Below are positions 60,150 to 64,000 of a stretch of DNA of 64,000 nucleotides, piece by piece; the first letter of the stretch is position 1; every line of letters starts with the position of its first letter. The position numbers were made by a program, and so were the translations under genes. The stretch spans positions 2,046,001-2,110,000 of the forward strand of contig NZ_CP071868.1 of the NCBI RefSeq assembly GCF_017569225.1. Reading direction: 5' to 3'. The DNA is from Pengzhenrongella sicca (GTDB lineage: Bacteria; Actinomycetota; Actinomycetes; Actinomycetales; Cellulomonadaceae). The notes beneath the pieces were generated by a model that searched no databases, was not told where the DNA came from, and saw only the letters and a program-made list of their open reading frames with translations.

Positions 60150-61208
60150 GTGAGCTCTTCCCGGGACGGCGAGGCCGCGGGCGCGCCGGTGCGCCGGCGG
60201 CCCCGGTTGCTGCGCTGGGGGCTGCCGCGCGACGCCGCGGCCGGCCAGCACGTCGCCGGGTTCTTCGTCGCGACGGTCGTGACCGTGCTGCTCACCCGCG
60301 GGCTGCTCGCGGCGGCCGGCTACCCGCAGGTCGGCGGCAACGGGCTGCACATCGCGCACGTCCTGTGGGGCGGGGTGCTGATGGCGCTGGCGTTCGTGCT
60401 GCTGCTGTCGTTCGCGGGGCCGGTCGTCCGGCCGCTCGGGGCGCTCGTCGGCGGGGTCGGCTTCGGGCTGTTCGTGGACGAGATCGGCAAGTTCGTGACG
60501 AGCGACAGCAACTACTTCTACGAGCCGACGGCGGCGCTCATCTACGGCGTCGTCGTCGCGCTCCTGCTCGTCGGCGAGGCGCTGCAGGGGCGGACCGCGC
60601 CGCGCGGCCCGGAGGCCCTGGCCGGGGCGGTTGACCACCTGGTGGCGGGGGTCGCTGGTGGCCTCAGCCCGCGGGCCCGCGACGCCGTCCGCGGGTTGCT
60701 CGCCGACGCCGGCGACGCCCCGGGGGCCGACGAGGTGCGCGCGCTCGTCGCGGAGGTCGAGGACGACGCGGACGAGCTGCCCGACCCGATCGGCGCCGTC
60801 GCGCGCTGGGTCGTGGCCGCGAGCCGGCGCGTGGTGCGCCGGGGGTGGGCGCCCTGGGTCGCGGTCACCGTGCTGACCGTGACGGGGCTCCTGACGGTGG
60901 GGCGCGGCCTGCTCGCGTGGGTCGGCGGTCGCGACGACGTGCCGGCGTGGGTCGTGCTCGGCATGGTGGTCAGCGGGCTGGTGTCGTTTGCGTGCTCGGT
61001 GCTCGGGCTGGCCCGGGTGCGCTCCGACGCGCGCACCGGGTACGAGTGGTTCCGGCGCTCCGTGCTCATCTCGCTGCTGGTGACCCAGATCTGCCTGTTC
61101 CGGCTGGACCAGTGGGCCGCGGTGGTCGGGCTCGCGCTGGATCTCGTGGTGCTCGCGGTGGTCGCGGCGGAGCTCACCGTGATGCAGGCGGGGGACCGGC
61201 GACGATGA
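60150..61208 (+). CDS. multi-pass membrane protein, unknown function
   Basis: The 352 aa starts with GTG at 60150, with a basic cytosolic N-terminus and about 7-8 predicted helices: roughly 35-55, 68-95, 98-113, 128-142, 225-252, 262-290 and 305-345. Between the two helix groups lies a soluble segment (about 150-220, Ala/Asp/Glu-rich). GLFVDEIGKFVTSDSNYFYEP in the first half is a conspicuous polar stretch, and CSVLGLARVRSDARTGYEWFRRSVLISL is another. I recognise no characterised family. Short GTGAG-type direct repeats lie between der and this gene. Confidence 0.75.
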   Translation: MSSSRDGEAAGAPVRRRPRLLRWGLPRDAAAGQHVAGFFVATVVTVLLTRGLLAAAGYPQVGGNGLHIAHVLWGGVLMALAFVLLLSFAGPVVRPLGALVGGVGFGLFVDEIGKFVTSDSNYFYEPTAALIYGVVVALLLVGEALQGRTAPRGPEALAGAVDHLVAGVAGGLSPRARDAVRGLLADAGDAPGADEVRALVAEVEDDADELPDPIGAVARWVVAASRRVVRRGWAPWVAVTVLTVTGLLTVGRGLLAWVGGRDDVPAWVVLGMVVSGLVSFACSVLGLARVRSDARTGYEWFRRSVLISLLVTQICLFRLDQWAAVVGLALDLVVLAVVAAELTVMQAGDRRR

Positions 61209-61310: not shown

Positions 61311-61937
61311 GTGGGCTTGATCCAGATCGAGCTGTTCACCACCCTCGACCTCGTCGGGCAGGCGCCCGGCGGCCCCGACGAGGACCCGATCGAGTTCGGG
61401 TTCGGCGGGTGGCAGGCGCCGCTGCTGGACGAGGTCACCGGGGCGCAGATCGGCGCCGCCTACGAGGGCACGGACGCCCTCCTGCTGGGCCGGCGGACCT
61501 ACGAGATCTTCGCCGCCTACTGGCCGCACCAGCGCGGCGGCGCCGACGACGACATCGCCACGATCTTCAACCGCGTCCCCAAGTACGTCGCGTCTCGCGG
61601 CCGGCCCGACCTCTCCTGGGCCGGGTCGACGCAGCTCGGGCCGGACCTCGCCGCCGCCGTGCGCGAGGTGCGCGACCGGCACGAGCAGGTGCGCGTCGTC
61701 GGGAGCCTGAACCTGGTGCAGACCCTGCTGCGGGAGAGGCTCTTCGACGTGCTCGACCTGTGGGTGCACCCGATCGTGCTCGGGGTCGGCAAGAGGGTCT
61801 TCGACGGCGGCGCGGTGCCCACGAACCTCACCCTGCTCGGGCCGCCGGAGGCCGGGCCGAAGGGCGCCGTGCACCTGCGCTACGGGCTCGCCGACGGCAT
61901 CCCCGCGACCGGGGACATGGGCGCGCGCGATACGTAG
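61311..61937 (+). CDS. dihydrofolate reductase/RibD C-terminal domain protein
   Basis: The 208-aa protein starts with GTG at 61311. It has the RibD-C/DHFR-like fold: MGLIQIELFTTLDLVGQAPGG at the start, ALLLGRRTYEIFAAYWP, IATIFNRVPKYVASR, and the C-terminal LFDVLDLWVHPIVLGVGKRVFDGGAVP. Such proteins are NAD(P)H-dependent reductases of unknown substrate and are not the folate enzyme itself. It stands alone, 34 nt before the next gene, which has its own promoter. Confidence 0.88.
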   Translation: MGLIQIELFTTLDLVGQAPGGPDEDPIEFGFGGWQAPLLDEVTGAQIGAAYEGTDALLLGRRTYEIFAAYWPHQRGGADDDIATIFNRVPKYVASRGRPDLSWAGSTQLGPDLAAAVREVRDRHEQVRVVGSLNLVQTLLRERLFDVLDLWVHPIVLGVGKRVFDGGAVPTNLTLLGPPEAGPKGAVHLRYGLADGIPATGDMGARDT

Positions 61938-61971: not shown

Positions 61972-64000
61972 ATGTCCTCCGACGCCATGTCCACACACGA
62001 CGGCGGCGCCTCGGGCGATCGGGACGCAGCGAACCCCTTGCGGGCCGGGGCCCGCGCGAGCGCGCCGCGCACGCTGGTCGACATCTTCGCCGTCACCGCG
62101 GCCCGCCACCCCGACGCCGTCGCGATCGACGACGGCGACGAGGTCCTCACCTACGCGGCCCTGGCGGAGGCGGTGCGCCTGCGGGCCGACCTCCTCGCCG
62201 CGGCCGGCGTCCGCCGCGGCGACCGGGTCGGGGTGCGCGCCACCTCCGGGACGGTCGGCCTGTACCTGTCGGTCCTGGCCGTGCTGCGGGCCGGGGCCGC
62301 CTACGTGCCCGTGGACGCCGACGACCCGGACGACCGCGCGCGGCGCGTGTTCGCGGAGGCGGGCGTCGTCGCCGTGCTGGGCGACGGCCCCGACGTCACG
62401 CGGCCGGACGGCTCCGTCGCGCCGGCCGTCCCGGACCGGGAGCCCGCCGACGATCCGCGGCCCGCCGACCAGCCGCGGTCTTCCGACGAGCCGCGGCCTT
62501 CCGACGACGCGTGGATCATCTTCACGTCCGGCTCGACCGGGCGCCCCAAGGGCGTGGCCGTCACGCATCGCAGCGCGGCCGCCTTTGTCGACGCGGAGGC
62601 GGGCCTGTTCCTGCGGCACGCGCCCATCCGCCCCGGCGACCGGGTCCTCGCCGGCCTGTCCGTCGCGTTCGACGCCTCGTGCGAGGAGATGTGGCTCGCC
62701 TGGCGGCACGGGGCCACGCTCGTGCCCGCGCCCCGTGCGCTCGTGCGGGCCGGGCTCGAGCTCGGACCGTGGCTCGTCGAGCGCGAGATCAGCGTCGTCT
62801 CCACGGTCCCGACCCTGGCGGGCCTGTGGCCCGTGGACAGCCTCGACGGCGTCCGGCTGTTGATCTTCGGCGGCGAGGCGGTCCCGCCCGAGCTCGCCGA
62901 GCGACTGGCCCGCGAGGGCCGCGAGCTGTGGAACACGTACGGCCCGACGGAGACCACGGTCGTCGCCTGCGCCGCGCAGCTGCATCCCGGTGAGCCCGTG
63001 CGGATCGGGCTCCCGCTGGACGGGTGGGACCTCGCGGTGGTCGGGTCGGACGGCGCCGAGGTGCCGGCCGGGGCGACGGGCGAGCTCGTCGTCGGCGGGG
63101 TGGGCCTGGCGCGGTACCTCGACCCCGAGCTCGACGCCGCAAAGTTCGCCCCGATGCCGGCGCTCGGCTGGGACCGGGCCTACCGCACGGGCGACCTCGT
63201 CGTCCGCGACGACGCGGGCCTCGTGTTCGGGGGCCGGGCCGACGACCAGGTGAAGGTCAACGGGCACCGGATCGAGCTCGCCGAGGTGGACGCCGCCCTG
63301 CAGGCCCTGCCGGGCGTGGCGGGCGCCGCGGCAGCGGTGCGGCGCTCCCCGTCGGGTGCCGCGCTCCTGGTGGGCTACGTGGTGCCCGCAGGCCCGGACG
63401 CCCTGGCCACCGCCGAGCTCACCGCCCGGCTGCGCGCCGCCCTGCCCGGGTCGATGGTGCCGCTGCTCGCCGTCGTCGGCGACATCCCCTCGCGCACCTC
63501 GGGCAAGGTCGACCGCGACGCGCTGCCCTGGCCCGTCGCGGGCCTCGACGCCGCCGGCGCGGGCTCGACCCTGCGCGGCACCGCGCAGTGGGTCGGGCAG
63601 CAGTGGGTCGCCGTGATCGGGGTCTCCCCGAGCGACGAGGAGGACGACTTCTTCGCGCGCGGGGGCAGCTCCCTGACCGCCGCCCAGCTCGTCTCCGCGC
63701 TCCGGGCCCGGTACCCCGAGGCCACCGTCGCCGACGTGTACGACCACCCCCAGGTCGGCGACCTCGCCGCCTCCCTGCAGTCCCGGTGGCCCGGGCGCGA
63801 CGCCGACGCCGCCGACGCCGACCCCCGCCTCGTTCGACCGGTGCCCGCCCGCAGCCAGGCGGTCCAGCTCCTCGCGCTGCTGCCGCTACGCGGGCTGGTC
63901 GCGCTGCGCTGGCTCACCGTGCTGGCCGCGCTCAACCTCGTGCTCGACGCCGCCTGGTCCGTCCCATGGGCGGTCCCCGTGTCCGGGTGGTGGCTCGCCA
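61972..64000 (+). CDS. Pls/PosA-type membrane-bound single-module peptide synthetase (partial, runs off the right edge)
   Basis: The first 676 residues are visible. A 30-residue disordered start precedes an adenylation domain (about 35-520): A3 TSGSTGRPKG (185-194), A4 FDASCEEMW (233-241), A5 NTYGPTETT (321-329), A7 YRTGDL (404-409), A8 GRADDQVKVNGHRIELAEVD (421-440) and A10 Lys in GKVDRDALP (512). A carrier domain follows, with DDFFARGGSSL (558-568; phosphopantetheine Ser566). From about 629 the sequence turns hydrophobic with membrane segments (about 645-676). No condensation domain precedes the A domain. A-T-membrane order is that of epsilon-poly-lysine synthetase (Pls) and PosA, normally about 1,300 aa with six helices and three C-terminal domains. 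Aligning by hand to GrsA gives code DAESIGTVVK, which I associate with lysine. An ATG at 61987 is an alternative start. Confidence 0.85.
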   Translation, partial: MSSDAMSTHDGGASGDRDAANPLRAGARASAPRTLVDIFAVTAARHPDAVAIDDGDEVLTYAALAEAVRLRADLLAAAGVRRGDRVGVRATSGTVGLYLSVLAVLRAGAAYVPVDADDPDDRARRVFAEAGVVAVLGDGPDVTRPDGSVAPAVPDREPADDPRPADQPRSSDEPRPSDDAWIIFTSGSTGRPKGVAVTHRSAAAFVDAEAGLFLRHAPIRPGDRVLAGLSVAFDASCEEMWLAWRHGATLVPAPRALVRAGLELGPWLVEREISVVSTVPTLAGLWPVDSLDGVRLLIFGGEAVPPELAERLAREGRELWNTYGPTETTVVACAAQLHPGEPVRIGLPLDGWDLAVVGSDGAEVPAGATGELVVGGVGLARYLDPELDAAKFAPMPALGWDRAYRTGDLVVRDDAGLVFGGRADDQVKVNGHRIELAEVDAALQALPGVAGAAAAVRRSPSGAALLVGYVVPAGPDALATAELTARLRAALPGSMVPLLAVVGDIPSRTSGKVDRDALPWPVAGLDAAGAGSTLRGTAQWVGQQWVAVIGVSPSDEEDDFFARGGSSLTAAQLVSALRARYPEATVADVYDHPQVGDLAASLQSRWPGRDADAADADPRLVRPVPARSQAVQLLALLPLRGLVALRWLTVLAALNLVLDAAWSVPWAVPVSGWWLA

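Follow-up and report, generated by a model that had tools for sequence, protein, structure and literature searches.

The locus lies at the right edge of a 64,000-nucleotide stretch of Pengzhenrongella sicca DNA (the window, G000:C1:2046001-2110000), taken from a genome that consists of a single contig of 4,395,128 bases. An open reading frame, pls, starts at window position 61972 on the plus strand and is still open at the right edge (64000) after 676 codons; in the genome sequence beyond the window edge it is complete (G000:C1:2107972-2111961, equivalent to L009:972-4961), encoding 1329 aa and closing with a TGA stop at C1:2111961. Just upstream of pls lies a gene for a RibD_C protein (61311-61937), preceded by a gene for a 352-aa membrane protein that has hydrophobic stretches and matched nothing in Pfam (60150-61208). 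Genes further upstream look housekeeping by eye, so no larger cluster is apparent on that side.

The window part of Pls was matched in Pfam by AMP-binding, AMP-binding_C and PP-binding, and by nothing else. The adenylation core (residues 40-381, 62089..63114, plus strand) matched PF00501 AMP-binding (E 3.2e-66) and TIGR01733 (348.8 bits, cut-off 317.4), and is followed on the same strand by the adenylation C-terminal subdomain, AMP-binding_C (PF13193, residues 438-512, 63283..63507), which scored 24.9 bits with the window part as query (cut-off 24.5) and 22.8 bits, under the cut-off, with the whole protein. Next comes a PP-binding carrier (thiolation) domain (PF00550, 39.4 bits, residues 539-600, 63586..63771, plus strand), whose attachment residue, Ser567, sits in a GGSSL motif and is conserved in 91/91 aligned Pls proteins (own included). 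The last part of the window (63862..64000, plus strand) holds the start of the Pls/PosA terminal domain, as placed by TIGR02353 and hydropathy, with a first hydrophobic segment at residues 633-661. Among the best 25 of 94 NCBIfam matches for the whole protein, TIGR02353 ("Pls/PosA family non-ribosomal peptide synthetase") covered residues 631-1319 and model positions 2-695 of 695 at 679.1 bits (cut-off 423.1). Condensation and thioesterase domains were both absent from the Pfam matches of the whole Pls (7 families at E ≤1), on which ground an ending of either kind was rejected; none of the outcomes that an earlier note on this DNA had named as telling against its reading appeared, and the order given there, adenylation, carrier and then membrane segments with no condensation domain, matches the Pfam and TIGR02353 results.

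For the terminal-domain model, the protein of Actinotalea soli (L010, 73% identical over 1310 residues) was placed first, followed by others to a set of 45 domains hand-picked from 56 non-redundant ones, producing a model of the L010 domain with a pLDDT of 88.1 and a pTM of 0.88. The long helices of this model come in three pairs, residues 11-47 and 57-84 (broken at 69), 248-281 and 287-321, and 499-523 and 525-554, and alternate with short-strand parts, which reads as six membrane helices and three soluble domains; a comparable model is described for the PosA terminal domain in the available part of PMC10522769. The six helices and acetyltransferase-like domains for which the earlier note had said to look, three of the latter, are borne out by the L010 model and the TIGR02353 match, whereas the hydropathy of the P. 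sicca protein itself gave four hydrophobic regions against the six helices expected. Among solved folds, those nearest to the L010 model were of hexapeptide acetyltransferases, with a best Z of 7.9 (rmsd 3.9 for 149 residues) and the matches falling mainly in C1 of the domain, values of Z ≤7.9 being at a level that, according to the alignment tool, may reflect merely a common arrangement; hexapeptide proteins were also matched by Foldseek (E 9.2e-6) and listed by VIA-align. These fold matches, whose Z alone could stem from such an arrangement, agree with a PF00132 (Hexapep) match in C1 of the P. sicca protein (32.0 bits) and with hexapeptide-protein matches in C1 and C3 from a profile search. 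Comparison of the three parts of the P. sicca protein with each other gave 138 for C1-C2, 142 for C1-C3 and 65 for C2-C3, against shuffle maxima of 58, 75 and 59 (300 shuffles each), the last difference being narrow. According to work cited in the available part of PMC4668381, all three tandem domains of Pls are essential for bond formation. Residues H757, D1015, H1258, H1261 and D1262 are kept in 91/91 Pls proteins and C1253 in 90, making these six candidate residues of the catalytic centre.

The ten specificity residues, D234, A235, E238, S277, I298, G300, T322, V330, V331 and K512 (62671..63507, plus strand; alignment of 91 proteins and 7wew_A), read D-A-E-S-I-G-T-V-V-K, with code positions set using core motifs rather than an alignment to GrsA. 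The PosA residues given in the available part of PMC10522769 (217, 218, 221, 260, 280, 304, 312, 313) have the same spacing, Pls having one more residue between the fourth and the fifth. In the same source, the second code residue is Ala for lysine enzymes, Met for ornithine enzymes and Phe for diaminopropionate or diaminobutyrate enzymes, the lysine pattern combining Ala at position 2 with Glu at position 3, and changing Met to Ala at position 2 of PosA raised the apparent efficiency with L-lysine nearly tenfold. The top PDB match of Pls was 7wew (E 6.7e-182), an epsilon-poly-L-lysine synthase adenylation domain to which it is 64.6% identical across 478 columns, with all ten code residues the same; a gramicidin synthase was next best (1.7e-121), with PosA 8g95 lower (2.5e-60). 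The lysine-like code that the earlier note had read by hand is confirmed and equal to that of 7wew; in the comparison with characterised Pls and PosA enzymes for which it had called, 7wew was closest, and PosA was compared through its printed code and the weaker PDB match alone. D-A-E-S-I-G-T-V-V-K is common to 89/90 other Pls loci (in the exception, L011 from Georgenia, I replaces V at position 9), a proportion that is descriptive and no independent evidence because these loci were picked best-first by similarity to the P. sicca protein or to the family model.

The gene following pls encodes a 455-aa M1 peptidase with a HELAH-18-E motif, of the enzyme class to which PldII also belongs, and there is a 4-bp overlap between its GTG start codon and the pls TGA. 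An M1 gene lies downstream of pls on the same strand in 90/90 other Pls loci, and on the opposite strand in none; a 4-bp overlap is possible in 58/103 loci (own included). In five loci from Tsukamurella and Williamsia (L060, L051, L066, L068, L075), 594-2136 bases separate the pls stop from the M1 match, and an insertion may exist there. A contrast set of 16 stretches from the phylum search contained 12 with 49-64% identity per domain, all with an M1 gene, and four distant relatives (23-33%) with no M1 match, four being too few to prove specificity. In L105, L106 and L107 (23-33% identity, no M1 match), the terminal and adenylation domains lie apart, apparently in separate genes. No hydrophobic N-terminal stretch or export signal was seen by eye in the P. 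sicca M1 peptidase.

Beyond the M1 peptidase gene, and convergent with the pls-peptidase pair, lies a gene for a phosphopantetheinyl transferase of the ACPS superfamily (G000:C1:2113358-2114158, or L009:6358-7158, minus strand). A relative in the same orientation was found in 12/80 named Pls loci, a count by similarity to one enzyme, in which diverged enzymes would be missed and for which at least L026 among the named loci and the 10 short loci L090-L099 end too early. Taxonomically, the same 12 comprise 12/15 Micrococcales loci and 0/65 others (two of the 65 uncultured and unplaced), with Cellulomonas telluris (L013), the closest by sequence, among the three Micrococcales loci that have none; among 12 later Pls-like stretches, the enzyme was present in L110 and absent from L109, both Micrococcales. 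No mention of a phosphopantetheinyl transferase beside pls was found in the available parts of the Pls literature, and the available part of a paper on S. albulus names such enzymes solely as a class over-represented in the strain-specific gene set (PMC4361855). There is a slim chance that the Micrococcales pair forms a three-gene cassette with a dedicated phosphopantetheinyl transferase, perhaps self-sufficient or mobile and perhaps with a shared non-antibiotic role; such a cassette could move between hosts and be activated without the host's own activating enzyme.

A quick tree was built from 57/91 Pls proteins, 34 rows (mostly Mycobacterium, Nocardia and Rhodococcus) having been dropped by hand for thinning, and placed P. 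sicca with Cellulomonas telluris, C. marina, C. cellasea and an uncultured Cellulomonas (SH-aLRT 95); the nearest Pls is that of C. telluris (77.2% identity). A recent transfer from Streptomyces is unsupported, the protein nesting among Cellulomonas in this tree. TIGR02353 was over its cut-off in 38/121 sampled genomes of the family (own included), 5/5 of the genus and 13/246 of the phylum (own included). One of the 14 control genomes, Corynebacterium glutamicum, was also over the cut-off. The available part of PMC8117764 reports Pls in coryneform actinobacteria (Corynebacterium, Brevibacterium, Arthrobacter, Microbacterium and others), and epsilon-poly-lysine from the C. variabile pls expressed in S. 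coelicolor, with no detectable polymer from C. variabile culture or from its gene in C. glutamicum; the eight genera with matches in its cheese and skin survey exclude the Cellulomonas clade. Since coryneform Pls is documented there and a Corynebacterium gene makes the polymer, and since about a third of the sampled family genomes are positive, the view that a Micrococcales host would be less expected was rejected. A literature search pairing Cellulomonas with poly-lysine found a single paper, to judge from the title a review of nattokinase. Near-identical plasmid DNA matched in 5 records, none reaching 80% of the query. At protein level, a Pls relative covering 80% or more of the query is present in 13 plasmid records (including Rhodococcus opacus, Mycobacterium avium, Kitasatospora and Arthrobacter); several bear a Pls/PosA family annotation, and some of the records are of a size at which they could be chromosomes.

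The observed domain order, code, terminal-domain membership and gene pair make it very probable, at the level of sequence, that the gene encodes a membrane-bound single-module epsilon-poly-L-lysine synthetase, Pls. The poly-lysine synthetase reading of the earlier note, which had placed the protein in the Pls/PosA family, is supported by the TIGR02353 domain, the code and the L010 model. For the product, its linkage, its export and the role of the peptidase, we infer from relatives. The adenylation domain would activate L-lysine with ATP and load it onto the phosphopantetheine arm of Ser567, and the terminal membrane domain, predicted to consist of six helices and three left-handed beta-helix parts, would repeatedly link the carboxyl of one lysine to the next lysine's epsilon-amino group, needing no condensation or thioesterase domain. 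The downstream M1 peptidase would most likely break down the polymer and so shield the producer, as PldII does; pldII is described as translationally coupled to pls and pivotal for self-protection in the available part of PMC9223678.

A sister homopolymer synthetase, making delta-poly-ornithine, poly-diaminobutyrate, poly-diaminopropionate or poly-beta-lysine, would share the domain order described for those families (PMC8117764 and PMC10522769, both available in part), and the TIGR02353 name itself covers both Pls and PosA. The printed codes speak against it: those of PosA (D-M-E-H-N-G-T-V-S-K), of the poly-beta-lysine enzyme (D-G-E-S-I-S-V-V-N-K) and of the diaminopropionate and diaminobutyrate enzymes all differ (PMC10522769, in the part available), whereas the P. 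sicca code equals that of 7wew. A peptidase operon partner is moreover reported for Pls, and another gene context for three other synthetases (PMC8117764, in part), leaving this family of products very improbable. The poly-diaminobutyrate alternative raised in the earlier note is disfavoured since Ala, the lysine mark, and not Phe occupies code position 2 (PMC10522769, in part), and a diaminobutyrate or ornithine polymer was rejected as product because the code differs.

The code leaves polymer length and linkage unfixed, and a Pls whose product is limited to short lysine oligomers, or is a polymer with a non-killing role such as cell-surface charge or adhesion, overlaps with the epsilon-poly-L-lysine synthetase reading, differing in length or role with the chemistry alike. 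Presence over the TIGR02353 cut-off in all five sampled genomes of the genus, the housekeeping look of the upstream genes and a natural role called less well understood (PMC8117764, in the part available) speak for another role; the patchy spread through family and phylum genomes is more like that of secondary metabolism, the tested terminal-domain residues match the wider set, and no sign of short chains was found, so that we consider this version unlikely. Equally compatible with the synthetase reading, and given a somewhat lower probability still, is a pls gene that is silent or decaying. Silence in P. sicca may be envisaged because C. variabile produced no detectable polymer under the authors' conditions (PMC8117764, in part). 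Against decay stand a frame intact across 1329 codons and the retention of Ser567, the tested terminal-domain residues and the motif of the coupled peptidase, observations that do not argue against laboratory silence.

The preferred reading, a Pls gene, adds for the Cellulomonas clade a well-supported predicted gene of epsilon-poly-lysine synthesis. Its practical use is modest, lying in more candidates outside Streptomyces and in the phosphopantetheinyl transferase as a possible aid to heterologous expression.

Among known systems, PosA of Acinetobacter baumannii (delta-poly-L-ornithine) has the same described architecture and shares code positions 1 (Asp) and 3 (Glu), and is unlike P. sicca Pls in its Met at position 2, His-Asn at positions 4-5, Ser at position 9 and described single-gene operon (PMC10522769, in part). 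C. variabile Pls, compared by description, resembles it in a host other than filamentous Streptomyces and in an operon with a peptidase gene (PMC8117764, in part). The gene for PldII, the epsilon-PL-degrading aminopeptidase of S. albulus, is coupled to pls as is the M1 gene of P. sicca (PMC9223678 and PMC4361855, both in part); by description, PldII is located outside the membrane (PMC9223678, in part), whereas the 455-aa P. sicca peptidase has no export signal by eye. S. albulus Pls (PDB 7wew) is closest, being like the P. sicca protein in domain order as described in the available part of PMC8117764, in its adenylation domain (same ten-residue code at the identity given above, 64.6% over 478 columns) and in its operon, where the downstream degrading-enzyme gene pldII overlaps pls by 4 bp (PMC4361855, in part). 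It differs from P. sicca in host, here of the Cellulomonas clade, and the P. sicca pair has an adjacent convergent phosphopantetheinyl transferase gene, a feature read on the P. sicca side of this comparison. The P. sicca gene pair is an ordinary further example of a unit known from Streptomyces, in a clade where it is expected.
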